From NCBI RefSeq assembly GCF_946187725.1, contig NZ_CAMHSK010000001.1, positions 124,001 to 188,000 of the forward strand: a DNA stretch of 64,000 nucleotides. The letters are read 5' to 3'. The notes under the pieces were generated by a model. It ran no database searches. It saw only the letters and a list, made by a program, of their open reading frames with translations, and had not been told where the DNA came from. This stretch comes from an uncultured Treponema sp. Lineage in GTDB: Bacteria > Spirochaetota > Spirochaetia > Treponematales > Treponemataceae. Shown here piece after piece: positions 4,134 through 18,034 of this stretch. Positions within the stretch are counted from its first letter, which is position 1; each line of letters starts with the position of its first letter. The position numbers were made by a program, and so were the translations under genes.

Positions 4134-4826
4134 ATGAACCTTCATTGTATGCATACTGGGCCGCTCAAGGTTAACACATTTCTTATCTCGGTTTCGGATT
4201 CCGAAGCGATTGTCGTTGACCCTGCGGACTGCCGTTTTTCGCGCGATGAAGGTTCTGTTGTTTCTTTTCTTTCTGCAAGAAACATAAAGCCTGTTGCGGT
4301 CATTTTGACGCACGGGCATTTTGATCATGTTTCCGGACTTCCTGTTATAAAAAAATCTTTTCCAGACATTCAAATTGCGATTCACAGAGAAGATTCTGCT
4401 ATGCTCGGTGAACATTCTGAGGATTTACAGGGAAATGCTCTGTCTCAGGTCGGCTTTGATCGTTTTCTTCCTTTTGTTTCAAATCTTCCAGATGCTACGG
4501 CTTTTCTTGATGATGGAAAGACTCTCGCACAAATCCTAGACTGTGAAAAATTCTCTGATGAGGCTCAAAAATCGCTGGCACAGTGGGAAGTAATGCATAC
4601 GCCGGGGCACACTGAAGGTTCGTGCTGTCTTTATAACGAAGATGAGCGCACTTTAATTTCCGGGGATACGCTTTTTTTCCAGTCCTGGGGCAGAACAGAT
4701 TTAATCGGGGGCAATGAACGCAAAATTCATGCTAGTCTTGCAAAAATCAATGACTGGTGCGAAGAGGATACGAAAGTTTATCCAGGGCATGATTATTACG
4801 GATTTAAGCTTTCAGAAAATTTCTAA
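4134..4826 (+). CDS. Metallo-beta-lactamase fold hydrolase (glyoxalase II-like)
   Basis: 230 residues from ATG 4134, chosen because a GGAG ribosome site sits just upstream; an earlier in-frame start at 4089 would overlap the preceding gene. Metal ligands are visible: the THGHFDH motif (HxHxDH) near residue 60, a second His in HTPGHTEGS, Asp in SGDTLF and a terminal His in YPGHDYYGF. This order is that of the hydroxyacylglutathione hydrolase-like subfamily, whose members hydrolyse thioesters such as S-lactoylglutathione; many have other substrates, so glyoxalase activity is only a suggestion. The 3' end overlaps the convergent phosphoesterase gene by 4 bp. Confidence 0.88.
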   Translation: MNLHCMHTGPLKVNTFLISVSDSEAIVVDPADCRFSRDEGSVVSFLSARNIKPVAVILTHGHFDHVSGLPVIKKSFPDIQIAIHREDSAMLGEHSEDLQGNALSQVGFDRFLPFVSNLPDATAFLDDGKTLAQILDCEKFSDEAQKSLAQWEVMHTPGHTEGSCCLYNEDERTLISGDTLFFQSWGRTDLIGGNERKIHASLAKINDWCEEDTKVYPGHDYYGFKLSENF

Positions 4827-5539
4827 AACAATTTGATTTCGCCGCGTGGAGTGGGCATTTCTGAATAAATTGGCTCTCCGTAGCGGTCCCATGAAATTCT
4901 GTAGTATTGGCAGATATTTTTTTCTTCTTCTGAGTGGACATCAACAATTGCAAATGTGTTCGGCATTCCGCCACGGGCTTGGGCACAGCTTCCTGGATTC
5001 AAAATTCCCAAAAAATCATTCCGGCCTTCTCTTGTAACATGGCTTCGCATTGAATTTGGAACATGGGTGTGTCCGTACCAGACTAAATCCATGCCGCGCT
5101 GAATTGCTTCATCTTTTAAAGTTTTATTCCCATAATAGACATTGTAGCGATGCCCGTGAGTAAGGAAGAGCTTTTTGCCTGCAAATTCTATTTCCTGAAA
5201 TTCCGGAACAATTATAGGAATTCGCTGGTCTGTGAAAATCGTAGAAGTTGAGTTGTCGCCGTTTCCTCGTACAAAATAAACTACAGGCGGGATTTTCTCT
5301 CCAAAATTCTTGTCGAAAAAGCCCATTTCAAGCGTTTCAACTAAGTCCAGTATACCATCGCCGCAAAAACACATAACATCGCATCGTGAGCCGAAATTTG
5401 AAACAATTGATTGAAGAATTCGCGGATTTCCATGAGAGTCAGAAACGACAAGGGCTTTTACAGTTTCCTTTTTTAAGAGAGAATCGACAGCTTCTTTGGA
5501 ACCGATTGCAAGATTTTCTTGTTGGACAAGTTCAATCAT
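4823..5539 (-). CDS. Metallophosphoesterase, YfcE/MJ0936 family
   Basis: Calcineurin-like phosphoesterase of 238 residues. Dimetal-site motifs appear in order: SDSHGN (DxH), CGDGILD (GDxxD), RGNGDN in place of the usual GNHD, THGH and GHTHVP (GHxH). The set fits YfcE-type phosphodiesterases, which are small cytoplasmic enzymes of poorly known physiological substrate. The N-terminal 28 residues before the first strand are an extension with no recognised motif. It lies 19 bp downstream of a lipoprotein gene on the same strand and probably shares its transcript; the start has no clear Shine-Dalgarno. Confidence 0.87.
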   Translation of the reverse strand: MIELVQQENLAIGSKEAVDSLLKKETVKALVVSDSHGNPRILQSIVSNFGSRCDVMCFCGDGILDLVETLEMGFFDKNFGEKIPPVVYFVRGNGDNSTSTIFTDQRIPIIVPEFQEIEFAGKKLFLTHGHRYNVYYGNKTLKDEAIQRGMDLVWYGHTHVPNSMRSHVTREGRNDFLGILNPGSCAQARGGMPNTFAIVDVHSEEEKNICQYYRISWDRYGEPIYSEMPTPRGEIKLF

Positions 5540-5558
5540 AGGCGGCCTGCGTAAAATC

Positions 5559-6362
5559 TTATTCGAATATAAAGTGGTTTATTGACTGCAGACCGGTTTC
5601 GCCGTCAACAAAATGTACTACTGTGCGGTTTTTGCCAAGAAGTTTTTGTACAAAGTTGAGCAAATTAGAATCGGCCTTGAGCGGCTCCCGTAATTCAATC
5701 ATTGCAGAAATTGAATTTGTGAGGATTTCCGTGGCATCGAAATCAGGAATAAAATCCGTGACTTCACCGTCAATCGTGTTTGTTTTGTGTGCATAATCAA
5801 GGACGAAATCAGATGTCGATTCTGAGCCAAGAACATCATCCTGTGAAAAAAGCGTGAAAACCGGGTAATTAACTTTGCCGTCTTCACTTTTGTCCTGAAT
5901 TTTTGAAAGTGCGATGTGCATTCCGTCTGGAGCACCAAGAATAATCATGCCTGCGAGCGTTTTGTCTTCAATTCGGTCTACAAGAGAACTTATACGCTCC
6001 TTTCCAGCGACCATAAAATCATTCGGATAGACAAAAACTGAAACCAAATCTTCTTTTTCTTCGGTTTCAACGCCAAAATTGTCGTTCAGCGACTGAGTGA
6101 TTTTGTTGATGCTTTCTTCATCATTGTAGCCGTATCCTAAAACGACGACGATATTTTTGCCTTCGAGCCAGGCTTTTGTTTCCGGAGAAATTCTTTTGAG
6201 CTTTTCTGGGCCTGTTCCGACAGCTTCTGCGGGAATTGAATTTGATGCTGTGAGTTTGTGATCTTTTTTACAGGCTGAAAAAGAAAAAAGCGAAATTGAA
6301 GCAAGAATCAGAATGCCTTTTTTGAAAAAATTGCCGCTTGCATTGAAAACTATTTTTAACAT
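5559..6362 (-). CDS. Putative lipoprotein, uncharacterised
   Basis: 267 residues with a lipoprotein signal: a basic N terminus, the hydrophobic run GILILASISLFSF and the lipobox FSAC, so the mature protein should be anchored by Cys. The rest reads as an alternating strand/helix protein (VVVLGYGYNDEES, LAGMIILGAPDGMH) reminiscent of a periplasmic binding-protein or Rossmann-like fold, but I cannot name the family. It is first in a two-gene unit with the phosphoesterase. A TAAAAT box ends 6 nt before the ATG with no Shine-Dalgarno, consistent with a leaderless mRNA. The preceding terminator separates it from the FecR operon. Confidence 0.7.
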   Translation of the reverse strand: MLKIVFNASGNFFKKGILILASISLFSFSACKKDHKLTASNSIPAEAVGTGPEKLKRISPETKAWLEGKNIVVVLGYGYNDEESINKITQSLNDNFGVETEEKEDLVSVFVYPNDFMVAGKERISSLVDRIEDKTLAGMIILGAPDGMHIALSKIQDKSEDGKVNYPVFTLFSQDDVLGSESTSDFVLDYAHKTNTIDGEVTDFIPDFDATEILTNSISAMIELREPLKADSNLLNFVQKLLGKNRTVVHFVDGETGLQSINHFIFE

Positions 6363-6403
6363 ATTTTGATTTTATCAGATTAGACGATTTTGCAAAAGTA
6401 AAA

Positions 6404-6439
6404 AGAAAAAAAATCTCCAGAAAAATGATTCTGGAGATT
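6404..6439 (-). terminator. Intrinsic terminator of the FecR operon
   Basis: A perfect 11-bp stem (AATCTCCAGAA paired with TTCTGGAGATT, 6-nt loop) lies between the FecR-domain gene and the downstream lipoprotein gene. On the minus strand the stem is followed directly by a run of about eight T residues, the layout of a rho-independent terminator. Confidence 0.85.
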
Positions 6440-6477
6440 TCACATTCAAATAGAACACATACTAACTCTATATAGAA

Positions 6478-7368
6478 TTAATTCTTTTCGTAACCAACTG
6501 TGATTGTAAGAGTGCCTTTGCTAGAAGACTTTGCTTCTGGAGCAGGAGCTGGTGGAGCTGCAAATTGTGGAGCAGGTTTTTCTACTTCGGAAGCAGATTT
6601 TGTTCCTTCACCGATAGAATTTGCCGTGCTGTGTTTAACCTGTGCTGGAGAAGACATTCCGCTACTCTGAGAAACGGCTGCTTCTTCACCTTTTTTTACG
6701 AAAATTGCGTTTTCCGGGGTGAAATCAAAAGCTTCCTGTCGCTGCTGTACAATGTTTTCTCTTGTTTCTTCGGTAGGAGCTTCAGCTGCTTCTTGATTTT
6801 CCTGATTTTCAAGCTCCTCTGGAGTTTCCAAAGTTTCCTGAACTGCCTGAGCTGAATTATCAAGTGCTGCTTCTGCTTTTTTGGTGTTTTTCCAGAAAGC
6901 GACGCTTCCCTGTTTTGTATTAAGTGAAACAGATTTGTATTTTGTGGCAAAATCGAAAATTGTACCTCGGACAGAAGCGGTTGCAACTGGAGAGCGGACT
7001 GTAAAGCCTACTCGGCGGTCAGCACTTTTCTGTACATTTGATTTGAGAGAGCCTGTGTCGAGGAAGATTGTTGTTTCGTCTTTACCTTTAGCTCCGCTCA
7101 AACCTTCTCGTTCTGCCAGTGTCTGGAGAGTAAGTCGTGAAAGAGGTGCTACAGTAACAGTTGACTCTTTGATTTTGAGAATTACTTCAGATTTGAAGCC
7201 GGTCTGGATTACCGAACCCTGATCGAGAGAGTCTCCTGGTTTGAGTGCGACCCATGTGCCGCCATTCTGAACTTCAGCTTTGCCTTTTGTAGAAACAACC
7301 TGTGCCTGCATTGCGAAAGATGTGAAAGCAACGGCTGTAAAAATTAATGAAAGAACGAGCTTTTTCAT
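6478..7368 (-). CDS. FecR-domain periplasmic/surface protein
   Basis: 296 residues with a cleavable signal peptide (MKKLVLSLIFTAVAFTSFAMQA). Residues about 22-160 form a FecR-type domain: the VSTKGKAEVQNGG and LKPGDSLDQGSVIQTG segments, then VRSPVATASVRGTIFDF, which is the diagnostic late motif. Then comes a Glu/Gln/Ala-rich low-complexity linker and a Pro/Ala-rich stretch before a short C-terminal segment. FecR domains in secreted proteins are frequently found beside CHASE2 sensors, and here a CHASE2 cyclase is encoded divergently about 1.8 kb away; an extracytoplasmic sensing partnership is inference. A strong ribosome site (AAAGGAGG) precedes the start, which is last in a three-gene minus-strand operon. 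Confidence 0.85.
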   Translation of the reverse strand: MKKLVLSLIFTAVAFTSFAMQAQVVSTKGKAEVQNGGTWVALKPGDSLDQGSVIQTGFKSEVILKIKESTVTVAPLSRLTLQTLAEREGLSGAKGKDETTIFLDTGSLKSNVQKSADRRVGFTVRSPVATASVRGTIFDFATKYKSVSLNTKQGSVAFWKNTKKAEAALDNSAQAVQETLETPEELENQENQEAAEAPTEETRENIVQQRQEAFDFTPENAIFVKKGEEAAVSQSSGMSSPAQVKHSTANSIGEGTKSASEVEKPAPQFAAPPAPAPEAKSSSKGTLTITVGYEKN

Positions 7369-7386
7369 ATTGACCTCCTTTTTATG

Positions 7387-8601
7387 CTAGAAAGCGATTG
7401 CCGCACTGATTTTGAGCTGAGTTTTGTTTGCTCCGATAATATTTTCGTAGTCTTCTTTGCCGATGTATTGTGTAAATGCTGTTGATAAAGAAACATCGCT
7501 TACGATTTGCCAGTTGAAGCCTGCTGAATACTGGAAACCAGCCTGCTCGATTTTGTCAGATTCATCCCCGCCAAGAGCCGTAAAAATAACATCGCCGCCA
7601 GCACTCAACAGAAAGTTTGAAACTGGTTTGATTGTTGCAGAAAGCCCTGCTTTAAGAACTCCTGAATATTCTGGCTCTAAAAGTGAGTTAACTGAGGTGC
7701 TGCTTGTAAATCCCTGGAATGGTTTGAAAGAACCTTGATTTCCAGAAGCGTATGTTCCGCTGAGGGACAATGACATTGATTTGAAATCCGGGTACACGGA
7801 AATTGAAACTTTTGAGAGATTTCCTTTTTCCATGTCGCCTTCATCGTATTTTGCAAAGCCCATTGTAGAAGAAATATTATAGAAGACAGGTGAAACAATC
7901 GGACCGTTTAAAGCGAATGTGCCGTAGAAACGGTTGTATTTTGTGGATTCGAGGGAAAGTGCTGCAAATCCTTCAAGAGAAACTGTCTGACTGGCGGCAA
8001 AATGTGGAAGCGAGAAGGTGAGCCCAGCAACAGCGTATTTGTTTGCAAGAACATAAACTGCTTTTTCTTTGTCGGTCAAATCAGGTGATGTCGGTTCAAG
8101 AATCGTGATGTTCTTTGCATTTAGAAGACCTGTGTATGCACCGTAAAGTGAAAGTGCAATTTTTGAAACATTTGCATCAAATTTTACGCCGTCTGCGTTC
8201 TGTGCGTAAACAATGCCCGTGATGTCAGAATTGAAGAAACGACCGAGAGAAAACTGAAGGTTTCCCGATTCAAGTTCATTTTTGAAAACAAATTTGAAAA
8301 GATTGAGGTCAGCAAAAAGTTTGAGCTTTTTGTCTGAATCTGTTTCGTTAGTGTCATATCCGGTCTGAAAAGCGGCTTCACCGGCGAAGTAGCTTGTGCC
8401 TTCTTCGTTTAATGGCGCACGAAGCCAGAAATTAACACCGTTTTTCTGATTTAATTTGAGACTTCCGTCTTTTTCAAAATTAGCGATTTTTGAATCGTTT
8501 GTGAGCAAGAAGCCGTTTTCAACGGAAAATGCCTGTGAAAGTGCAAAAAAAACTGCCGCGCTTGAAATCAAAGTCTTAAAGATGTGCTTGCTTTTAATCA
8601 T
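7387..8601 (-). CDS. Putative outer-membrane beta-barrel-like protein
   Basis: 404 residues with an N-terminal signal peptide ending near AVFFALSQAFS. The mature part is a string of short alternating amphipathic strands rich in Ser, Gly, Phe and Tyr and ends with a hydrophobic strand terminating in Phe (LKISAAIAF), the pattern expected of an outer-membrane barrel C terminus. I cannot assign a family. It sits between the 161-residue secreted protein (their start and stop share the base at 8601) and the FecR-domain gene 18 bp downstream, so all three are probably one transcript and may form one envelope assembly. Confidence 0.65.
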   Translation of the reverse strand: MIKSKHIFKTLISSAAVFFALSQAFSVENGFLLTNDSKIANFEKDGSLKLNQKNGVNFWLRAPLNEEGTSYFAGEAAFQTGYDTNETDSDKKLKLFADLNLFKFVFKNELESGNLQFSLGRFFNSDITGIVYAQNADGVKFDANVSKIALSLYGAYTGLLNAKNITILEPTSPDLTDKEKAVYVLANKYAVAGLTFSLPHFAASQTVSLEGFAALSLESTKYNRFYGTFALNGPIVSPVFYNISSTMGFAKYDEGDMEKGNLSKVSISVYPDFKSMSLSLSGTYASGNQGSFKPFQGFTSSTSVNSLLEPEYSGVLKAGLSATIKPVSNFLLSAGGDVIFTALGGDESDKIEQAGFQYSAGFNWQIVSDVSLSTAFTQYIGKEDYENIIGANKTQLKISAAIAF

Positions 8602-9086
8602 TATTCATTACCTCCTACGAGTCTGAGGCATGTGTTGAAGATATCGATTGTGTCTCTGCCGGAAAGCTTCATGCCCGGATCAGCTTCGCCAGGAAGTATG
8701 CCTTTTGCTTTGAATTCCTTGAAAGCATAACGCTCTGAAGGGAAAAGACTGTAAAAAAGACCGCCTTTAATGTTCATTGTTTTGGCATATAGAAAGCAGA
8801 TTTGCCCTAAAGTGATTTCAGAATCGGCTGTGACAGAAGGTGAAAAACATCCTTTTGCTTTGGCCGCTTCAAATGCAGCGTTATCTTTTGAAGCGTTTCC
8901 TTCTGAGAATGTACCCAGTGATTCTTCTTCATTTATAAAATTGGCATAAAGTGCCGGTAAATATGCAGCTTGTGCACAAGTCGCTTTTTCTGATTTGATG
9001 ATTTTTGTCAACATCTCTGAACTTTGTGCAAAAACTGTGCAGCTGACGAAAAGAGCGATGACAAGACATGAAACACATTTCTTCAT
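8601..9086 (-). CDS. Small secreted protein, first gene of FecR operon
   Basis: 161 residues with a signal peptide (CVSCLVIALFVSCTVFAQ). No family recognised. The mature part is helical with a conserved-looking pattern (ATCAQAAYLPALYANF, ITLGQICFLYAKTMNI, GRDTIDIFNTCLRLV). The cysteine inside the hydrophobic region (LFVSC) could alternatively serve as a lipobox; AQS cleavage seems equally possible. A GAGG ribosome site precedes ATG 9086. It is divergent from the cyclase gene, with 104 bp between the two starts, so the intergenic region may control both directions. Confidence 0.65.
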   Translation of the reverse strand: MKKCVSCLVIALFVSCTVFAQSSEMLTKIIKSEKATCAQAAYLPALYANFINEEESLGTFSEGNASKDNAAFEAAKAKGCFSPSVTADSEITLGQICFLYAKTMNIKGGLFYSLFPSERYAFKEFKAKGILPGEADPGMKLSGRDTIDIFNTCLRLVGGNE

Positions 9087-9177
9087 ATCGCAAGAACTCC
9101 TCTAAAAAGTGGGCTGGAAAAATTCTTTTTAACAAAGAATTTATTAAGAAATAATTCAGCTATATTATAATCTGTGT

Positions 9178-9183
9178 TATAAT
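9178..9183 (+). promoter_or_regulatory. Cyclase -10 box abutting the start codon
   Basis: A perfect TATAAT ends 7 nt before ATG 9191 with no Shine-Dalgarno between, implying a leaderless transcript. The -35 region 17 nt upstream (TTCAGC) is weak. A second TATAAT lies about 13 nt further upstream at 9165-9170, so a short 5' leader from that box is an alternative. Confidence 0.45.
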
Positions 9184-9190
9184 ATTTGTC

Positions 9191-12079
9191 ATGGAAAAAA
9201 ACAAAAAAAACAGGAAAGATTCTAAAAAATCTCTTCCGCGAAAAGTGATTGCACTTCTGATTGTTGTATGCTCGGTTGCCTTCTGGTCTCTGGTTTGTGC
9301 CATTGGTGCCCTGCAAAAATTCGACTATCGAATTTACGATTTGCTTTTGGGATTCAAAAAAAGCCCGGATGTCAGAAAAGAAATTCTTTTTGTAGAAGCA
9401 GACGACGCTTCCATGAGCAACGATTCTTTTCAGGAGATGAAGACCTGGCCGTGGCCAAGGAACATTTTTGCCAGTGCGCTCATGCGTATGAAAGAATTCG
9501 GTGCATCTGCTGCTGTATTCGATATTGAGTACCTTGCTCCATCAAGTCTTGCTGTCAACGAGGATGCCATTATTGAGGCGGCCGCGAATTTTGACGGAAC
9601 AATGCCTGATTTTGATAAATTTGTCCGCGATAACGATGATTATTTTGCCCGTGCCATTCAATTTTTTGGAAATGCTTGGCTCACAATCAACACGATGGAC
9701 ATCAAAATAAAATACACCGATGAAGAAATCGATTATGTTAAAAAACGCTTCCTATATAATGTAGAAGATAAAGATGATTTGATTCTAAGGGATTTCAGAC
9801 AAGGCCGACTCGATAGTATAAAAACTTCTTTCATCGATAATTTCACTGGAGATAAACCTGACTGGGACAATCCTGAATTCCAGAATAAATATCTGATTGG
9901 TTTCTCTCCGACCATGCACAAATTCATCAGTCATGCTCAGGGTGCGGGATTTACAAATGTCATTATCGATATGGACGGAACCCGCCGCCGAATCGAACTT
10001 TTGAACAAAAAGGATGATGTGTATTCGGCACAGCTTGCCTTTTCACCGGTCTTGAGAATTCTCAATCCTAATAAAATCAGTCGCGAAAAAAAGTCTATTG
10101 AATTAAATAATTGCCGCAGTCTCGGTGGGCGAAACATTTCGATTCCGCTGGACGAAAACGGCAAAATGATAATCAACTGGCTTCACATCCCTTTCAACTA
10201 CTCTTTCAGACACGAAAGCATGTACTTCCTTGCACAACTTGATGAACTCGAGAAGAATATTGTTTCTGTTCTTGGCTCTTTGAATGGATTTTTGATTTCA
10301 GTCGATGCGGTAAAGGTCGATGGGCTTGAACTTGAACCTCTTCAATCTACTGCAATGATAAAATCTCTTGTTTCTGATTACAAAGACATCAATGACTATA
10401 AGGAATATCTTCTTGCAAACTGCGAAGGCTATGATGCAGAAGGAAAGGCAATCGGGGGTGGTGTTGATTATGCTGATTATGTTCAGTATTTCCAGGCCCG
10501 ACAGTCATTTTTTGATGGCGTAACCAAAGTTGCCGGAAAGAAGGGTGATGAAAATAATCCGCTTCTTGAAGAAATAAAGGAGCGTTTGCTTATATTGCCA
10601 ATTTCTTCTGAAGAGGCACAAGGGTATTATGAAGAGGTCGCAGGCCTTTTTGACACCTTGCAAAGTGAAAATGCCCTGTATAATTCGATTTTTACCGAAA
10701 AGAAAGCGGCTTATGCCAATTCATTCTGTATTCTCGGACACACGGCAAGTTCAACAACTGATTTGGGTACTACGCCTTTTGAACGAGCCTTCGCTAATGT
10801 CGGAACTCATGCCAATGTCTACAATACAATCATGAATCAGGATTTCATTTATCCTGTAAGCTGGATTTGGGGTGTTGTGATTGCGGCAATTTTCTCTATC
10901 GTTTTGATTGTTTTGCCAGCTGAAAAACGCGCGCGGGTTCAGAATACGACTGGTGTTGCGCTTGTCGTTCTGAGCCTTGTAATACCGCCATTTTTGATGG
11001 TTCTGTTCAGTCTTTACATTCCTGCTCTTTCAGCTATTTTGATTGCATTTACATCGTACCTTGCGATGACGATTTACCGATTCGCGACAAGTGAAAAAGA
11101 CAAGAAATTCCTTCAGACTACATTCGGTGCGTATGTTGCGCCTGCGGTCGTTGATCAAATCGTAAAGAATCCGGAACTTGCGAGCTTGGGTGGTAAAAGT
11201 GACAACCTTACGGCTCTCTTCTCAGATGTAAAAACTTTCTCCGGCTTCACTGAAGTCATTAACAACGAAGAAGGTGAAGACAAGGGTGCTGAACGACTGG
11301 TTGCCATTTTGAACGATTATCTTGGTGTTTTGAGTGACGCAATCATGGATAATAACGGCACAATCGATAAATATGTCGGTGATGAAATTGTCTCGTTCTT
11401 TGGAGCACCTGTCCACGATGACAACAATGCCTACGATGCCTGTGTTGCGGGTATCCGAATGTTGCAGGCTGAGCATCGTTTTAACGAAGAAAACAAAAAG
11501 CGTCTTCCAATCAATCCGGCAACAGGAGAGCCTTTCTATCTCCATTCGCGTGTTGGCTTGAACACTGGTAACATGGTTGTCGGTAACATGGGAACTGTAA
11601 AAAAATTGAACTACACAATCATGGGTAACAATGTAAACTTGGCCAGCCGTCTTGAAGGTACGAACAAAGTTTATGGCTCATGGATTATGTGTTCGGAAAG
11701 CACATGGAATGCGGCAAATCAGGGTGAGCATGAAGGCAAAATCGTGGCGAGAAAACTTGACTGTGTTCGTGTTGTCAATGTCAAAAAACCGGTCGGAATC
11801 TATTCGATTATCGGTTTGCGTGATGAACTTAGTGACAAGCGAATTCAGGCAACGGACTTGTTCAACGAGGGCATGAAATGGTACTTAAAAGGAATCGATA
11901 CTCCGGAAGAACCGAAAGATATTGAAGATTTGAAAAAAGCCTATGCCCTTTACAAGCAGGCCGATGAATTGTACCCCCAGGACGAAAGCTCAAAGGTCTT
12001 CATGGAACGCTGCGTGGACTTCATTAAGAACGGCGTACCTAAAATTTGGGACGGCGTATACACGATGAAATCTAAATAG
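9191..12079 (+). CDS. CHASE2-domain adenylate/guanylate cyclase
   Basis: 962 residues: a membrane segment at about 16-40, a large extracytoplasmic CHASE2 sensor (about 45-545), three membrane segments at about 555-640 and a class III nucleotide cyclase domain (about 660-870), then a helical TPR-like tail. The catalytic core is intact: metal-binding Asp in ALFSDVKTFSGFTE and in KYVGDEIVSFFGAP, and the YTIMGNNVNLASRLEGTNK segment carrying the transition-state Asn/Arg. The Lys in KYVGDE fits purine recognition; cAMP is the likelier product but cGMP cannot be excluded. It is divergent from an operon encoding a FecR-domain protein, a recurring partner of CHASE2 sensors. The likely job is converting an envelope signal into a cyclic nucleotide. 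Confidence 0.92.
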   Translation: MEKNKKNRKDSKKSLPRKVIALLIVVCSVAFWSLVCAIGALQKFDYRIYDLLLGFKKSPDVRKEILFVEADDASMSNDSFQEMKTWPWPRNIFASALMRMKEFGASAAVFDIEYLAPSSLAVNEDAIIEAAANFDGTMPDFDKFVRDNDDYFARAIQFFGNAWLTINTMDIKIKYTDEEIDYVKKRFLYNVEDKDDLILRDFRQGRLDSIKTSFIDNFTGDKPDWDNPEFQNKYLIGFSPTMHKFISHAQGAGFTNVIIDMDGTRRRIELLNKKDDVYSAQLAFSPVLRILNPNKISREKKSIELNNCRSLGGRNISIPLDENGKMIINWLHIPFNYSFRHESMYFLAQLDELEKNIVSVLGSLNGFLISVDAVKVDGLELEPLQSTAMIKSLVSDYKDINDYKEYLLANCEGYDAEGKAIGGGVDYADYVQYFQARQSFFDGVTKVAGKKGDENNPLLEEIKERLLILPISSEEAQGYYEEVAGLFDTLQSENALYNSIFTEKKAAYANSFCILGHTASSTTDLGTTPFERAFANVGTHANVYNTIMNQDFIYPVSWIWGVVIAAIFSIVLIVLPAEKRARVQNTTGVALVVLSLVIPPFLMVLFSLYIPALSAILIAFTSYLAMTIYRFATSEKDKKFLQTTFGAYVAPAVVDQIVKNPELASLGGKSDNLTALFSDVKTFSGFTEVINNEEGEDKGAERLVAILNDYLGVLSDAIMDNNGTIDKYVGDEIVSFFGAPVHDDNNAYDACVAGIRMLQAEHRFNEENKKRLPINPATGEPFYLHSRVGLNTGNMVVGNMGTVKKLNYTIMGNNVNLASRLEGTNKVYGSWIMCSESTWNAANQGEHEGKIVARKLDCVRVVNVKKPVGIYSIIGLRDELSDKRIQATDLFNEGMKWYLKGIDTPEEPKDIEDLKKAYALYKQADELYPQDESSKVFMERCVDFIKNGVPKIWDGVYTMKSK

Positions 12080-12082
12080 GTT

Positions 12083-12272
12083 AAATGTCGAGTTTTGTTA
12101 CACTGACATTGCAAAAATGGGGCACTACCAGAAAAGAGACTGTTGTTCAACACGGTTGCGCGTAATAGGTATCTGACTCGCTAACGCTCGCACGCGCAAA
12201 GTGTTTCACAACAGCCCTGCTTTTCTTCCCGTGCCCCATTTTTGATATTACTGTCAAGCAAACTCGACATTT
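12083..12272. repeat. Foldback element A (13-bp perfect terminal inverted repeats)
   Basis: A 190-bp unit ending in perfect inverted repeats AAATGTCGAGTTT / AAACTCGACATTT. The pairing continues imperfectly inward: about 40 nt on each side match (through TTGCAAAAATGGGGCAC on the left and GTGCCCCATTTTTGATA on the right), followed by further pairing in the interior (GTTGTTCAACAC with GTGTTTCACAAC; TTGCGCGT with ACGCGCAA). It encodes nothing convincing. It lies immediately after the cyclase stop codon. Confidence 0.75.
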
Positions 12273-12301
12273 TTCTATTCTATGCTCATAAAACCGTCTA
12301 A

Positions 12302-12512
12302 TGACGAGTTTTGAATTGGTCAGGTATTGCAAAAAACGGCGCGAGGGAGCGAAACGGCTTACGAAAACACTCGTTTTGTGCTGCCGCGCAAGCGGCAAAT
12401 GTATATAGTTACAAGCACAAAACGCGTGTAGCAGGCTAGCCTGCGGTTTCGATAAGCCGTTATCACGACTGGGAGCCGTTTTTATGCAGTCAGTAAATTT
12501 CAAAACTCGACA
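12302..12512. repeat. Foldback element B, same family as A
   Basis: A second foldback unit of about 211 bp, 29 bp after element A. Its ends (TGACGAGTTTTGAA / TTCAAAACTCGACA) match each other with one mismatch and match the TGTCGAGTTTTG end of A. The next 25 nt (GTCAGGTATTGCAAAAAACGGC on the left) also resemble A's arms. The interior differs from A and is nested: ACGGCTTACGAAAAC pairs with GGTTTCGATAAGCCGT, TTTTGTGCT with AGCACAAAA, and GCCGCGCAAGCGGC forms a tip hairpin. Together A and B fill the 507-bp gap between the cyclase and tolC; the last 70 bp hold the tolC promoter. Confidence 0.75.
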
Positions 12513-12550
12513 GAGAGTCTAAATAATTTTTTGTTAATAACAACTTTTTT

Positions 12551-12580
12551 TTGAAACCTGTTTATATTCGCCGATATTAT
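12551..12580 (+). promoter_or_regulatory. Efflux operon promoter (leaderless type)
   Basis: TTGAAA (12551-12556), 18-nt spacer, TATTAT (12575-12580), then 6 nt to ATG 12587 with no Shine-Dalgarno. The position rules out the upstream TTG at 12551 as the translational start, since that codon is part of the -35 box. Confidence 0.55.
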
Positions 12581-12586
12581 TATAGT

Positions 12587-13885
12587 ATGAATAAAACTAT
12601 AATGATGTCGGCGATTTTCTTTTTGTGTTTTGCACCGACATTCACCCAAACTGATAGAACACTTTCTGTTGAAGATGCAGTAAAACTTGCAAAAGAAAAT
12701 AATGTTTCAATCGCCCGTGGAAAAATCACCCTTGAGGCGGCCGAAAGAGCAAAAAATCATTCATGGAACAGCATAAGCCCAAGCGCGAGCGTTTCTGCTT
12801 CTTCTGCAATTCCAATTGACGCTCTGAGCGACACAAAATCAAATTACACGGCGAGTTTCGGTCTTTCTGCGACTGTTTCTCTTTCTTTGAGCGCAAATCT
12901 TTTTACTTCAATGAATGCGGCAAAAATCAATTATGAGTCGGGAAAACTGACTTTTGATGATGCCGTAAAATCTGTGGAACTGAGCGTTCGTGAAGCATTT
13001 TACGGACTTCTGTACGAAAAAGAAAACATCACTCTGCAAGAAAAGAACCTTGAAATGGCAAAAAATCAGTACGATAACAATCTTGCCAAATACAATCAGG
13101 GGCGGCTGAGCGAAATCGATGTTCTTTCCGCAGAAGTCAATTACAAGAGCAAAATTCCGACGGTTGAAAGCGCAAGGACTACTTTTCAGAATGATTTAGC
13201 TTCGTTCAAGCAGACGCTTGGCCTCAAACTGGATGACAGAATTGAACTTGAAGGATCCCTTGATGACCTGATTAATCTTAACGAAATTTCTGTTGATATA
13301 AAAACTGTGCAGTCTTCTTCTATTATATTGCTTGAAAACAAGATTGCCAGCGCAAAGAATTCCGTTCTGGAAAAAAGATTTTCTGCTTTTGCACCGAGCC
13401 TGAGTGCTAATTTTACATGGAGGGACCAGAACTGGTATGCGGGCTATGAAGGAACTGCTCCTGATGCCACAAAATCCGCTTCCCTCTCGCTTTCGGCTAC
13501 GATTCCGCTTGATGGCGTTCTTCCGTGGTCCAGCAAAAATGACGCGATTGACAGTGCAAAAGACACGCTTTCAGATCTTGAACTTCAGCTCGACAACGAA
13601 AAGAAAAATCTAGTGCGCACGGTACAGTCAAGTCTGCGCTCTATTAAGCAGAGTCAGGAATCAATCAAATACAAGCAGGCGAATGTGACTCTTGCTCAAA
13701 AAACTTACGATATGACGACAGAAGCCTACAATCGGGGAACAAAGGATTTGCTCACATTGCAGAATGCGAACACATCACTTTTGAATGCGCAGGTCACGCT
13801 AAAGAGCGAAACCCTCACGCTGATTAAGGCAATTCTGAAACTTGAAAATACGATAGGTCTGCCTTTTGGTACGCTTGGAAAATAA
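12587..13885 (+). CDS. TolC family outer-membrane efflux protein
   Basis: 432 residues from ATG 12587 with a signal peptide (MMSAIFFLCFAPTFTQ). Two repeated outer-membrane-efflux-protein units are visible: SVEDAVKLAKENNVSIARGK begins the first, and long heptad helices follow (MAKNQYDNNLAKYNQGRLSE and, in the second half, LAQKTYDMTTEAYNRGTKD with the matching helix-turn). It would form the trimeric channel of the tripartite pump whose adaptor and RND permease follow directly. Length is at the short end of the family. Starting at 12587 removes a 12-residue extension lying over the promoter. Confidence 0.9.
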   Translation: MNKTIMMSAIFFLCFAPTFTQTDRTLSVEDAVKLAKENNVSIARGKITLEAAERAKNHSWNSISPSASVSASSAIPIDALSDTKSNYTASFGLSATVSLSLSANLFTSMNAAKINYESGKLTFDDAVKSVELSVREAFYGLLYEKENITLQEKNLEMAKNQYDNNLAKYNQGRLSEIDVLSAEVNYKSKIPTVESARTTFQNDLASFKQTLGLKLDDRIELEGSLDDLINLNEISVDIKTVQSSSIILLENKIASAKNSVLEKRFSAFAPSLSANFTWRDQNWYAGYEGTAPDATKSASLSLSATIPLDGVLPWSSKNDAIDSAKDTLSDLELQLDNEKKNLVRTVQSSLRSIKQSQESIKYKQANVTLAQKTYDMTTEAYNRGTKDLLTLQNANTSLLNAQVTLKSETLTLIKAILKLENTIGLPFGTLGK

Positions 13886-13915
13886 AATCAAAAACTGTGG
13901 ATATAAGGATTATAT

Positions 13916-14911
13916 ATGGAAGAAAATTCAAAAAACACGAAAGTAAAATCTAAAAAATCGATGATTGTTGTTGCGGCGACTCTTGCGTTGCTTGCACTTT
14001 GCGTTATTGTGGCGAAAAAACAGTCTGGGGCAAATCAAGGACCAGGTGGAATGAAACGCGGTCGTGGCGGCGGAAATACTGTTGTATCTGTTAAAACCCA
14101 GATTCTTGAAAAGACAACTCTTCACGGCTACATTTCAACGAACGGTGAAATTGAAAGCCAAAATTCGGTAAATGTTTTCCCTGATGTCTCTGGAAAAGTC
14201 ATGGAAACTCGCGTAATGCTTGGTTCACCTGTAAAACGAGGCGACATAATCGCATACATTGATCCAAGTGCTCCAGGTCAGTATTACAAGCAGAGTCCGG
14301 TCTACGCACCAATCTCAGGAAGCATCATTTCGACTCCGCTTAAAAATGGCACGACTGTTTCGACAAACACTACAATTGCAATTGTTGGTGATATTGCGAA
14401 TTTGCAGGTGAGTGCGAATATTCCCGAACGATATGTTGCGGTCTTGAAAACAGGTCTCAAGGCGGATGTTTCTGTTCAGGCTTATCCTGATGTCGTATTC
14501 AAGGCAACTGTCACGAGGGTAAGCCCTGTTGTTGACACCACAAGCCGTACTAAAGAAGTGATTCTGCTTTTTGACGGTCAGGATGAACGAATCAACGCAG
14601 GTATGTTCGGAAAGGTTAAACTGTTTACGGAAGATTATACGGGTGAAGTCGTTATGCCGGTTGATTCGCTTGTGCAGAACGGTGATGAATATTTTGCCTA
14701 TGTTGTGAATGAAGATTCCACGGTCTCAAAGCGCAAAGTTACGCTTGGCAATTCAGTTGACGGAATCGTGCAGATTTTGAGCGGCGTAAATGAAGGAGAG
14801 AGAGTTGTCGTTCAGGGACAGACATCGCTTGGAGACGGTTCGAAAGTTCAGGATATTACGAATGGTGTTGCCAACAAAGCTGAAAGCGTGAAGCCAGAGA
14901 AAAAGGAATAG
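13916..14911 (+). CDS. RND efflux periplasmic adaptor (membrane fusion protein)
   Basis: 331 residues. One N-terminal membrane anchor (MIVVAATLALLALCVIVAKK), then a lipoyl/barrel-sandwich domain (GYISTNGEIESQNSVNVFPD through the VYAPISGSIISTPLKNGTTV half), a beta-barrel domain (AKVTRVSPVVD equivalent here FKATVTRVSPVVD) and a membrane-proximal domain (VQNGDEYFAYVV, GVNEGERVVVQG). The helical hairpin normally between the lipoyl halves is very short, typical of HlyD/AcrA relatives with reduced hairpins. It bridges the RND pump and TolC. It sits 30 bp after tolC and 3 bp before the permease; its ribosome site is AAGG. Confidence 0.93.
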   Translation: MEENSKNTKVKSKKSMIVVAATLALLALCVIVAKKQSGANQGPGGMKRGRGGGNTVVSVKTQILEKTTLHGYISTNGEIESQNSVNVFPDVSGKVMETRVMLGSPVKRGDIIAYIDPSAPGQYYKQSPVYAPISGSIISTPLKNGTTVSTNTTIAIVGDIANLQVSANIPERYVAVLKTGLKADVSVQAYPDVVFKATVTRVSPVVDTTSRTKEVILLFDGQDERINAGMFGKVKLFTEDYTGEVVMPVDSLVQNGDEYFAYVVNEDSTVSKRKVTLGNSVDGIVQILSGVNEGERVVVQGQTSLGDGSKVQDITNGVANKAESVKPEKKE

Positions 14912-14914
14912 CTT

Positions 14915-17900
14915 ATGAGCATATCAAAGAAAACACTCGATCACCCGGTGCTTACGCTGATTGTGTTTGTGCTGCTTTTGATTATGGGATTGTTCACGCT
15001 TAAAAATGTTGCAATCAGCTTGATGCCGGATGTGGATTCTCCGTATATTACGGTGCGCACTTCCTATACGAACGCTGGCCCTGAATCTGTTGAAAAATCC
15101 GTGACTAAAGTTCTCGAAGGCCAGCTTGTTTCGGTCAGCGGACTCAAAAATCTCACTTCAACATCATCTTCTGGTTCTTCTTCAATTTCGCTTGAATTCA
15201 ATTACGGTACAGACTTGGATGCTGCTACGAACGATATTCGCGATAAAATCAGCCGTGTCACAAGGAATTTGCCGAGTGATGCGGGCAGTCCGACTATTTT
15301 CAAAATGGATTCTGATTCCATGCCGATTATGCGAATTGCGGTTCGAGGAAACCGTTCAAACGACGACTTAAAGCAGATTGCCGAAGACCAGATTATTGAC
15401 CTTTTTGAGCAGGTTGATGGCGTGGCAGAAGCAAGTGTTTCGGGCGGTCGTACAAAAATCGTTCGCGTGGACATTTCTCAGAACAGGCTTGCGGCTTACG
15501 GTCTTACAATGGCGAATGTGTATTCGGCACTGGGAAAGCAAAATTTGGAGCTTGGCGGCGGAAAAATCACTGAAGGTACACACGATTATACAATCCGTAC
15601 TGTAGGTGAATTTTCGAGCATCGATGAAGTTAATGACACAATCATTACGACTCTCAATGGTTACGGTGTAAAATTGAGCGACATCGGAACAGCTTATCTT
15701 GGTTATAAAGATAAATCGAGCGAAGTCTACATCAACGGTCAGCCGGGCATTTATGTGAGCATTACAAAGCAGTCAGGAAAAAACACCGTCACAGTCGCAA
15801 AGGCGGCACGCGAAAAAATGGCCGAAATTCAGGAAATTCTGCCAAGTGACATGCGGCTTGAAATTATCCGCGATTCTTCCACTTCAATCAACGACACGAT
15901 TAACACGCTGATTGAATCCGCATACACTGGTCTTATTCTTGCGGTAATCATTTTGTTCCTCTTCTTAAAGTCGGGCAAATCTACAATGATTATTGCAATT
16001 TCAATTCCGCTTTCTATTGTAATTACTCTTCTCTGCATGAATTTTGCCGGAATCACGCTCAACATGATGACTTTGACCGGTCTTATTCTGGGCGTTGGAA
16101 TGATAGTTGACGCTTCAATCGTTATGATTGAAAACATCTATGTTTACCGAAGCCGCGGTGCCAAGCCTAAAGTCGCGGCGGTTCTTGGTTCTCAGGAAAT
16201 GGTCATGTCGGTCATTTCTGGCAACCTCACAACAATCTGCGTATTTGTTCCATTCCTTTTTTTCATTAAGAATTTGGGCATGATGGGGCAGATGTTCAAA
16301 GGAATCATCTTTACGGTCGTAATCGCACTGGTTTCATCACTTTTTGTAGCGATTTTCCTTGTTCCGGTTCTTGCGGGTAAATTCTTTCCGCTTACAAACC
16401 GAAAGGAAAAACCGGTCAGCTTTAAGCCTCTCCGAAGATTCTACGAGCTGCTTGAAATCCCGCTCGTAAAGCTCACTGGTGTTTACCGAAAAGCCCTGAA
16501 TGCGGCACTTTCGCACAGGCTTGTTACTTGCATTGTCTGCGTGAGCGTTCTTTTGATGTCTATTGTCTTTATTCCGACATTGCGTATTCAGATGATGACA
16601 GGCGGCGGTGATGACAGCGTTACGATGAATCTCACCATGCCAATCGGAACGACTTTAAGTGAAACTACGGCCGTGCTCAAAACTTTCGAACGGATTTGTG
16701 AAGAAGAAATCAAGGGTTATACAACACTGATTACATCGATTGGAACTGGTGGCGGAAACACCTCTTACAAAGGTTCAATTCAAATCAACTTGCCGTCTTC
16801 CGATGAACAGATTGATACAGCTGAATCGATTCAGAAAAAGCTTCGTGCTCATTTCGGTGATTTTACTGATGCACGCTTTTCTTTCTCGCAGGGCTATATG
16901 CGTCAGATGACAGGCTCATCATTTAAACTTAAAATTCGCTCTGACGATTTGGATTCGGCTCTCAAAGTTGCTTCTCAGGTACGGGGCGTAATGGAATCAA
17001 TTCCTGACATTGGTGAAGTTTCGATTGATACCGAAGAGGGGCTCCCGGAAGTTGAGATCGAAATCGACAGACAGCGAGCCTATTCCTTTGGCGTTGATGT
17101 AACTACTGTTGCAAAAGAAATCAATTACGCGATTAACGGTGTAACTGCAACGACTTACAGACAGGACGGAAAAGAGTACAGCATGATTTTGATGTACCAG
17201 AAAGGCGACCGACAGAGCGTTGCTGATTTGGAACAGATTTATGTTAACGGTTCAAAAGGCAAGGTCAGCGTGGCGAATTTCGCAAAAGTCGTCAAAGGTT
17301 TGGGGCCTGTTTCAATCCGGAGGGCGAATCAGACTCGTGTCGTAACGGTAAGCGCAGATAATAACGGAAAGCGCAATGATTATGAAGTTGAATCTGATAT
17401 AAAAGAAGGAATTGCATCAACATTCATTATTCCTGATGGAGTTACGATTTCTTACGAAGGCAACTGGAAGGATACGCAGGAGCAGGGGCAGGTTTACGGT
17501 CTCATAATTCTGATGGCGATTCTTCTCGTCTTTGGAGTCATGGCCGGTACATACGAAAGTTTCAAGGCACCGTTCATCAATTTGATGACAATTCCATTCC
17601 TTATCATTGGCGTTGTTTTTGTTTACAAATTGACAGGACAGGCATTCAGCATGATGAGTGCAGTCGGTTTGATTATGCTTGTCGGAATCGTTGTAAATAA
17701 CGGAATCATTCTTGTTGATTACACGAATCTTTTGATTGACCGTGGCTACAAGATGAAAGAGGCCTGCCTTGAAGCCGGAGCAAGCCGTTTGCGCCCGGTT
17801 CTTATGACCACGCTCACCACGATTCTTGGCATGATTCCGATGTGCTTTGCGACAAGCGGAAGTGCTGGCATGGTTCAGCCAATCGGTGTTGCTGTAGCGG

Positions 17901-18034
17901 GCGGACTGACAAGCTCAACCTTCATTACGCTTTTCTTTATCCCTGTTTTGTATTCTTTGATGATGAAAGAACGAAAGCAAAACAAGTCAAAGATAAAGAT
18001 TTTGCTTACAGAAGACAACAATCATAAGGATTAG
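14915..18034 (+). CDS. RND family efflux transporter permease (HAE1-like)
   Basis: 1039 residues with the classical two-fold RND layout: membrane segment 1, a large periplasmic loop, six segments, then the same again. TM1 begins TLIVFVLLLIMGLFTLK; the TM4 region carries GMIVDASIVMIENIY, the proton-relay position with one Asp (the AcrB DD pair is DA here, as in many HAE1-like pumps outside Proteobacteria). The late motif GIVVNNGIILVDYTN is in TM10. Substrates cannot be read from sequence; drug, bile-salt or lipid export are options. It is co-transcribed with tolC, the adaptor and the PG0541-type gene 6 bp downstream. Confidence 0.95.
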   Translation: MSISKKTLDHPVLTLIVFVLLLIMGLFTLKNVAISLMPDVDSPYITVRTSYTNAGPESVEKSVTKVLEGQLVSVSGLKNLTSTSSSGSSSISLEFNYGTDLDAATNDIRDKISRVTRNLPSDAGSPTIFKMDSDSMPIMRIAVRGNRSNDDLKQIAEDQIIDLFEQVDGVAEASVSGGRTKIVRVDISQNRLAAYGLTMANVYSALGKQNLELGGGKITEGTHDYTIRTVGEFSSIDEVNDTIITTLNGYGVKLSDIGTAYLGYKDKSSEVYINGQPGIYVSITKQSGKNTVTVAKAAREKMAEIQEILPSDMRLEIIRDSSTSINDTINTLIESAYTGLILAVIILFLFLKSGKSTMIIAISIPLSIVITLLCMNFAGITLNMMTLTGLILGVGMIVDASIVMIENIYVYRSRGAKPKVAAVLGSQEMVMSVISGNLTTICVFVPFLFFIKNLGMMGQMFKGIIFTVVIALVSSLFVAIFLVPVLAGKFFPLTNRKEKPVSFKPLRRFYELLEIPLVKLTGVYRKALNAALSHRLVTCIVCVSVLLMSIVFIPTLRIQMMTGGGDDSVTMNLTMPIGTTLSETTAVLKTFERICEEEIKGYTTLITSIGTGGGNTSYKGSIQINLPSSDEQIDTAESIQKKLRAHFGDFTDARFSFSQGYMRQMTGSSFKLKIRSDDLDSALKVASQVRGVMESIPDIGEVSIDTEEGLPEVEIEIDRQRAYSFGVDVTTVAKEINYAINGVTATTYRQDGKEYSMILMYQKGDRQSVADLEQIYVNGSKGKVSVANFAKVVKGLGPVSIRRANQTRVVTVSADNNGKRNDYEVESDIKEGIASTFIIPDGVTISYEGNWKDTQEQGQVYGLIILMAILLVFGVMAGTYESFKAPFINLMTIPFLIIGVVFVYKLTGQAFSMMSAVGLIMLVGIVVNNGIILVDYTNLLIDRGYKMKEACLEAGASRLRPVLMTTLTTILGMIPMCFATSGSAGMVQPIGVAVAGGLTSSTFITLFFIPVLYSLMMKERKQNKSKIKILLTEDNNHKD

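Follow-up and report, generated by a model that had tools for sequence, protein, structure and literature searches.

The window analyzed here is a 64,000-nucleotide stretch of genome from an uncultured Treponema sp. It contains three minus-strand genes, for a small secreted protein, a barrel and a FecR-domain protein, that diverge from a gene for a CHASE2 class III adenylate cyclase (Table 1). The initial annotation had placed these four genes here, and an open reading frame was found for each. The small and barrel genes overlap by a shared base, 8601. It had also noted that the window lacks a CRP-type target. In agreement, Pfam found no match to the cNMP-binding family PF00027 within the window, and all eight PF00027 matches of the genome lie on other contigs. 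Elsewhere, the genome encodes six proteins that bind cNMP, including a CRP-type one.

Table 1. Genes and sequence features at the locus, in window coordinates
Feature	Position	Strand	Length	Description	Basis
FecR-domain protein gene	6478-7368	-	296 aa	N-terminus resembling a signal peptide; FecR domain (Pfam) at residues 55-156; linker of variable sequence; C-terminus with a short, conserved hydrophobic strand	ORF
Barrel gene	7387-8601	-	404 aa	Predicted outer-membrane beta-barrel, 18 strands, AlgE/OprD-like	ORF; AlphaFold2 + structure alignment
Small secreted protein gene	8601-9086	-	161 aa	Predicted SLH-like fold	ORF; AlphaFold2 + Foldseek + VIA
CHASE2 class III adenylate cyclase gene	9191-12079	+	962 aa	Hydrophobic segments 20-38, 559-577, 588-606, 610-628; CHASE2 domain flanked by the first two of these; cyclase domain at 670-846	ORF; hydropathy (segments); Pfam (domains)
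Terminator-like stem	6410-6441	-		13 pairs + T-run, 3' of FecR gene	Consensus scan
Divergent gap	9087-9190		104 bp	Between small gene and cyclase gene; overlapping promoter-like sites on both strands	Consensus matches only
Promoter-like site	9192-9164	-		Extends to cyclase start codon	11/12 consensus
Promoter-like site	9144-9171	+			10/12 consensus

The cyclase matches both CHASE2 (PF05226; 107.2 bits, cut-off 26.3, E 1.4e-30) and Guanylate_cyc (PF00211; 53.6 bits, cut-off 21.9, E 2.7e-14) in Pfam. Catalysis by such enzymes depends on two metal aspartates, a lysine that specifies adenine together with a threonine or aspartate, and an asparagine and arginine that act on the transition state. 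At least 128 of the 129 aligned rows conserve each of the corresponding residues, D679, K727, D731, T809, N816 and R820. Because the residues of an adenylate cyclase are present, cAMP is expected rather than cGMP, and judging from these residues it is probably the product in vivo.

FecR is a signaling-type domain, a role established for Fec systems, and PF04773 matches the FecR-domain protein with 32.8 bits (cut-off 24, E 9.7e-8). As commonly described, FecR-FecA-FecI iron signaling likewise connects a barrel in the outer membrane to an inner output, with a FecR domain in between. Here, the output is a cyclase instead, and Pfam found no sigma-factor gene beside the FecR gene among the eight proteins scanned, which span 4823-14911. 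The C-terminal strand pattern recurs in 111 of 154 relatives, compared to 2/154 and 1/154 in two control windows. Leptospira Lsa33 and LipL45 (NCBIfam) are likewise spirochaete FecR-domain proteins, but the window protein matches their models weakly, at 26–48 bits where the family cut-offs are 420 and 350, and we rejected it as an orthologue of either. T. pallidum TP0483-TP0485 were considered as another candidate counterpart, but no paper found treats them as a FecR-cyclase set.

The second product had been described as barrel-like, and its AlphaFold2 model bears this out, with 18 strands and a mean pLDDT of 94.6. The model aligns best with AlgE and OprD (for AlgE, VIA Z 29.5, rmsd 3.3 over 340 residues, identity 11%); the score against OmpM1 is lower (Z 17.7). 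From this model, we predict a porin-type outer-membrane barrel. Pfam assigned no family to the window barrel, and no family was common to more than one of 61 barrel members.

Pfam also found no match in the small secreted protein of the window. When its AlphaFold2 model (pLDDT 89.7) was searched with Foldseek, the top 13 rows were all SLH domains (probability 0.99–1.00, best E 5e-3), and no row reached E 0.001 or better. In VIA, the 13 SLH entries scored Z 10.2–11.7, ahead of an S-layer cytochrome (8.4) and the next row (4.4); a Z below about 13 may reflect a common arrangement in helical models, but the SLH rows stand well above the others. At the sequence level, the Pfam SLH model (PF00395) matched 1 of 69 small-protein members (E 0.047) and none of 10 remote members, and a sequence profile search of the PDB gave a single unrelated match (E 0.1). 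Comparing the small protein with treponeme SLH repeats in hhalign gave 6%, from a weak alignment in which one row (L256) is out of frame and another contains X; the controls gave 0.1% (gc), 0.2% (chase2), 47.8% (FecR) and 12.8% (barrel), the last two over columns that fall within signal peptides. Because the structure model shows an SLH fold while the SLH sequence model is unmatched, we describe the protein as having an SLH-like fold, predicted from the structure model, and do not file it under PF00395. Its probable binding partner is the wall or a polymer linked to it, although SLH-fold proteins may bind other things as well. These results suggest that a phylum can have many SLH-fold proteins that escape Pfam. 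In a search of a viral fold library, two of the best three rows were named SLH and the third was nameless.

With an SLH-like fold assigned to the small protein, what had been a barrel plus an unknown becomes an OmpM-like pair. In the OmpM-type SLH porins of Negativicutes, a periplasmic SLH fold is joined to an outer-membrane porin (PMC5007114; PDB 8bym/8bys/8byt), and the protein is described as an anchor from the outer membrane to peptidoglycan (PMC5007114). Unlike OmpM, the window encodes the SLH-like protein and the barrel as two genes, tied to FecR and the cyclase. In one relative (L150), the two form a single chain from one ORF, in the same N-to-C order as OmpM. Four of six long forms of the small protein that were scanned (L154, L155, L158 and L169) carry an OmpA domain (PF00691, E 1.3e-15 to 1.4e-19). 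A 554-aa barrel ORF at L090 was considered as another fusion and rejected, as the small gene there occupies its own frame.

The arrangement of the three minus-strand genes is widely kept. At 148 of the 154 small genes examined, the barrel and FecR genes follow in that order, with median gaps of -4 and 16 bp. Identity to the window protein in alignments of relatives is 17–62% for the barrel, 26–63% for FecR and 28–56% for the small protein. A CHASE2 cyclase lies beside or near the small gene at 95 of the 154 loci (divergent at 85, downstream at 8, near at 2); there is none at 49, and at 10 the contig is too short. The locus sets overlap, so the 154 loci are not all from different genomes; 12 barrel genes are common to two loci, and 145 are distinct. 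Eighty stretches (L091-L170) were hand-picked from the small-protein matches listed. A further set was anchored on FecR, with the small protein unused in finding it, and 75 of its 80 loci contain the full triplet. At four of the other five, the match is at a contig end; the fifth is L193. A DUF3798-like gene was found in at least 34 of 146 (window query, E 1e-5).

The initial annotation had proposed a phylogenetic profile of the four genes, and we carried this out genome-wide for the cyclase and for the small protein, the latter serving as marker of the triplet. Among 241 genomes of the order Treponematales, 135 have both the small protein and a strong CHASE2 orthologue, 7 the small protein only, 6 the cyclase only and 93 neither (Fisher p 4e-50, not corrected for kinship). 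The cut-off for a strong orthologue (E 1e-90) was chosen after seeing a gap from 1e-97 to 1e-48, and the absences are soft because only some of the first-look candidates, up to 16 and 5 per genome, were scored. Relatives with the cyclase and without the operon genes had been named as the observation that would count against the module. At the level of gene neighborhoods such relatives exist: eleven cyclase loci in the same genus have no adjoining triplet (L057, L058, L063, L065-L068, L070-L073). Genome-wide, the small protein is encoded elsewhere in 10 of these 11 genomes. The exception is G006 (90% complete, 160 contigs), in which the cyclase is present and the small protein was not detected with all candidates scored. 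Conversely, three high-quality genomes (G095, G145 and G212) have the small protein and no strong CHASE2 orthologue, indicating that the triplet can have a function independent of this cyclase. Both are absent from the 1.1-Mb genome G061.

Named species with the quartet include T. berlinense, T. parvum and T. zioleckii. Outside the order, 73 genomes have a small-protein match. We examined 20 of these loci, mostly those with stronger matches; all 20 have the triplet, in several gene orders, and 15 also have a CHASE2 cyclase. This recurrence across order and phylum argues that the four genes do not come together by chance.

Each part of the module is of a known kind. The initial annotation had stated that FecR-domain proteins accompany CHASE2 sensors, and the pairing is in print: the Burkholderia BiofilmReg operon has a secreted FecR-domain protein beside a CHASE2 sensor (PMC5192318). 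There, a peptidoglycan-binding LysM domain is fused to FecR, and the output is a histidine kinase with a response regulator (PMC5192318). In contrast, the window has a cyclase rather than a kinase, no LysM match was found by Pfam in its FecR protein, and a separate SLH-like protein replaces LysM. No barrel is listed as one of the four BiofilmReg components (PMC5192318). In Sinorhizobium meliloti, the published excerpts describe the NsrA barrel together with the CHASE2 cyclases CyaD1, CyaD2 and CyaK and with Clr (PMC13001267, PMC7529298). This system resembles the quartet in pairing an outer-membrane beta-barrel with an inner-membrane CHASE2 adenylate cyclase, and its cAMP serves a CRP-type receptor. 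Unlike the quartet, no SLH-like protein or FecR partner is named in the excerpts (PMC13001267, PMC7529298), and we liken the barrels without a homology comparison. Our searches of open-licence full text did not turn up this four-gene combination.

Taken together, these observations make it somewhat probable, in our judgment, that the quartet works as a single sensor spanning the envelope, composed of a split OmpM-like tether-porin, a FecR relay and an inner-membrane adenylate cyclase. The SLH-like protein would sit in the periplasm, holding the wall or a wall-linked polymer, and would form the tether-porin with the 18-stranded barrel in the outer membrane. The secreted FecR protein, with its flexible tail and docking-type C-terminal strand, would inform the CHASE2 domain, in the periplasm, of the state of this outer-membrane part. 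The cyclase in the inner membrane would then alter its cAMP output, which would act on effectors encoded elsewhere, candidates being the six cNMP-binding proteins. By analogy, the quartet may work in the manner of NsrA-CyaK, with similar coupling. A chain from the outer membrane to a cytoplasmic cyclic nucleotide, as originally suggested, is thus still the best reading and agrees with the profile; we infer its physical and signaling links, including complex formation among the products and the direction of the signal.

The 49 of 154 triplets with no nearby CHASE2 cyclase speak against such a chain. Together with the three high-quality genomes lacking a strong orthologue, the L150 fusion and the likeness of the barrel to OprD porins and to AlgE, which exports alginate, they would fit a structural or transport unit, a split OmpM-like porin and tether or perhaps an AlgE-like polysaccharide pore, whose state is not read by a cyclase co-regulated from the shared divergent promoter. 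A shared promoter cannot be the sole reason for the association, however, because co-occurrence holds in 10 of the 11 genomes in which cyclase and triplet are not adjacent. FecR is, moreover, a signaling-type domain, and we regard this explanation as unlikely. More improbable still is a reversed order, in which CHASE2 receives its own signal and cAMP acts through a CRP-type regulator on expression of the triplet, making the triplet an output rather than a sensor. The overlapping divergent promoter-like sites and the CRP-type protein encoded in the genome speak for this order. So does SMc02177, a FecR-domain protein of S. meliloti that is targeted by Clr and whose involvement in signal perception the authors' results did not support (PMC5498481); this finding also weighs against the sensor reading. 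On the other hand, the triplet lies far from the cyclase in many relatives, and NsrA, the barrel of the nearest analogue, is described as acting upstream of the cyclase (PMC7529298).

The sensor reading itself leaves a choice of signal. The barrel could be a receptor for an outside ligand, such as a nutrient polymer or host protein, with the small protein and FecR linking it to the wall and cyclase, so that the surroundings are sensed rather than the envelope. This is a variant of the sensor explanation that differs in its signal, and the probabilities of the two overlap. The signal reported for NsrA-CyaK, ribosomal protein uL2, comes from outside (PMC7529298). However, the barrel is not clearly more variable than FecR or the small protein, and its spread over a phylum with many habitats suits an internal cue at least equally, leaving the ligand receptor rather doubtful. 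A further, more speculative reading is a phylum-wide spirochaete attachment gauge, in which the grip of the tether between outer membrane and wall would pass through FecR to the adenylate cyclase and appear as cAMP. If so, a spirochaete would read the attachment state of its own outer membrane. The module offers a defined four-gene set bearing on the link between outer membrane, wall and cytoplasm in spirochaetes and on sensing by CHASE2 cyclases. Burkholderia, Sinorhizobium and the spirochaetes together suggest a candidate general rule, that the usual companions of CHASE2 sensors are FecR and proteins attached to the wall and outer membrane.

Four genes in two divergent transcription units occupy 6478-12079 of the window (Table), in a genome (3.27 Mb, 80 contigs, 98% complete) whose strongest matches with a name are treponemes of rumen and gut. 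The units are separated by a 104-bp gap that carries one promoter-like site per strand, and a terminator-like stem lies 3' of the FecR gene, all as consensus matches only. Because of these signals, we consider the operon probably limited to the genes for the small protein, the barrel and the FecR protein. Downstream of FecR lie genes for a DUF3798-like secreted protein and a phosphoesterase. The DUF3798-like gene follows FecR, on the same strand, at no fewer than 34 of 146 places, and at loci L057 and L058 the pair adjoins the cyclase, where the triplet is not present. The three genes listed last in the Table come after the cyclase, and L053 and L054 have relatives of all three in the same place.

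Table. Genes of the locus and its flanks (window coordinates, from ORF reading)
Feature	Position	Strand	Pfam
DUF3798-like secreted protein and phosphoesterase	4823-6362	minus	DUF3798-like, E 4.6e-4, under cut-off; Metallophos_2
FecR-domain protein, 296 aa	6478-7368	minus	FecR
Barrel, 404 aa	7387-8601	minus	no match
Small secreted protein, 161 aa	8601-9086	minus	no match
CHASE2 cyclase, 962 aa	9191-12079	plus, divergent	CHASE2 + Guanylate_cyc
Outer-membrane efflux, HlyD-type and RND-like genes	12551-18034	plus	RND-like is a putative label

The first 40 neighbourhoods read around relatives of the cyclase include 18 in which all four genes occur together; L078, at a contig end, holds pieces of the small and FecR genes, and L061 (T. 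berlinense) has the small gene. We also read 80 loci picked from genome matches to the small protein (L091-L170) and, in named genomes, the best 80 of 193 confirmed FecR matches (L171-L250). The triplet was fully called at 75 loci in each set. Among the small-anchored misses, L130, L139, L140 and L160 are each one gene short in the ORF table; stop-to-stop reading finds the gene in the first three and not in L160, and L166 is cut just past the small gene. Four FecR-anchored misses (L220, L223, L239, L250) have their match close to a contig end; L193 is the fifth. Of 154 small genes examined, 148 stand in the same-strand order small, barrel, FecR, with median gaps of -4 bp and 16 bp, respectively. 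At 85 of these 154 places the cyclase is divergent; 8 have it downstream, 2 have it near and 49 have none nearby, and its placement is undecidable at 10. The closer-knit unit is therefore the triplet, which the cyclase usually accompanies. One locus, L103, carries the triplet twice within a 12-kb stretch, the second copy with its small gene split over two frames.

In a sample of 241 genomes from the order, 142 have the small protein and 141 a CHASE2 orthologue (E < 1e-90). Both are found in 135, the small protein alone in 7, the cyclase alone in 6 and neither in 93 (Fisher p 4e-50, a statistic that ignores kinship, from a profile whose first-look candidates were scored in part only). All six cyclase-only genomes are below 90% complete. 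Among high-quality genomes with the small protein, 112 of 115 also have the cyclase; G095, G145 and G212 have no CHASE2 orthologue at that threshold. Co-occurrence also outlasts separation: 10 of 11 genomes whose same-genus cyclase has no adjacent triplet (L057, L058, L063, L065-L068, L070-L073) carry the small protein elsewhere (G027, G031, G030, G035, G010, G015, G019, G034, G026, G033). The eleventh, G006 (90% complete, 160 contigs), is the single near-counterexample: it has the cyclase (E 1.6e-144), and the small protein was not found with all candidates scored.

At the level of the phylum, 118 of 296 genomes have the small protein, and 73 of the 118 belong to other orders. The triplet is present at all 20 loci read there (20 of the 73 genomes), in several arrangements, among them small-FecR-barrel and FecR-small-barrel, and 15 of the loci also have a CHASE2 cyclase, one of these cut by a contig end. 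Because gene order is shuffled yet the genes stay together, they most likely form a functional set. At L150, small protein and barrel share one 744-codon open frame, in the same N-to-C order as in OmpM. Another small-protein family ends in an OmpA domain, which is known to bind peptidoglycan; four of six long forms scanned match PF00691 (L154, L155, L158, L169; E 1.3e-15 to 1.4e-19), whereas those of L150 and L151 do not. These two kinds of fusion place the small protein between the outer membrane and the wall. The SLH-like protein at L151:4848-6656 continues into an extended tail of GGGVYI-type repeats that by eye resembles a beta-helix.

The small-protein model (pLDDT 89.7, built with 68 relatives) resembles SLH domains. 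SLH domains (Sap, SpaA) fill the top 13 Foldseek rows against the PDB at probability 0.99-1.00, with a best E of 5e-3 and no row reaching 0.001; the next row has probability 0.08. With a second structure aligner the 13 SLH entries score Z 10.2 to 11.7, well separated from the remaining rows (S-layer cytochrome 8.4, first other row 4.4), although by the aligner's own caveat Z below about 13 may reflect a common arrangement in helical models. Pfam SLH matches 1 of 69 members (E 0.047), and hhalign against SLH gives a weak alignment (6%). Since the link is not visible by sequence, we call the predicted fold SLH-like and keep the protein out of PF00395. A search of 116 genomes from the order found canonical SLH domains above the cut-off in 14, and none in the window's genome. 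The barrel model (18 strands, pLDDT 94.6) is nearest to AlgE, an exporter of alginate (Z 29.5, rmsd 3.3, 340 residues, 11% identity), and to OprD/Occ porins (Z about 24-27), with the SLH porin OmpM1 scoring Z 17.7; the fold does not tell the cargo.

In the FecR protein, the domain is followed by a linker of variable length, frequently Ser/Pro/Ala-rich, and a short C-terminal hydrophobic strand. At least three i,i+2 pairs of large hydrophobics occur in the last 14 residues of 111 of 154 relatives, whereas two control windows placed in the linker give 2 and 1 of the 154; this pattern suggests a docking strand. The cyclase has hydrophobic segments at 20-38 (N-terminal) and 559-577, 588-606 and 610-628 (central); the first two enclose the CHASE2 part. 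Residues that we take to be metal aspartates (D679, D731), adenine-specifying (K727, T809) and transition-state residues (N816, R820) are each conserved in at least 128 of the 129 long rows, some genomes being represented twice, and an active adenylate cyclase is expected.

Other FecR-cyclase arrangements exist. In the window's own genome, L088 (G000:C23) pairs an 805-aa cyclase (HAMP, weak dCache match) with a following 924-aa FecR protein that gives weak PKD-like and weak sorting-tail matches. CHASE2 cyclase loci of another type (L075, L077, L083, L084, L086) combine the cyclase with short FecR proteins of 130-156 aa and with one large neighbour (1371-2274 aa); three large proteins scanned, from L075, L084 and L087 (1253 aa), gave no Pfam family.

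Most likely, the small protein and barrel would act together as a tether and pore of a split OmpM-like type, whose state FecR would relay to CHASE2, and this input would lead to cAMP. Every single part is of a known kind; the open-licence literature searched yielded neither the four-gene combination nor a description of SLH-like proteins as common in spirochaetes. OmpM anchors the outer membrane to the wall in Negativicutes (PMC5007114), and a Burkholderia CHASE2 kinase is accompanied by a FecR protein with a peptidoglycan-binding LysM domain (PMC5192318). In S. meliloti, CHASE2-cyclase signalling to the CRP-type Clr requires the outer-membrane barrel NsrA (PMC13001267, PMC7529298), the nearest working example of the proposed chain. 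The targets of Clr there include a FecR-domain protein, SMc02177, for which the authors' results did not support a role in perception (PMC5498481); this counts against FecR as a relay. Possible receivers of cAMP in the window's genome are six cNMP-binding proteins, including one CRP-type regulator. In two others of the six the cNMP-binding domain is fused to BrkB (L049, G000:C9) and to HATPase_c_2 (L047, G000:C39), and these fusions are unusual candidate cAMP effectors.
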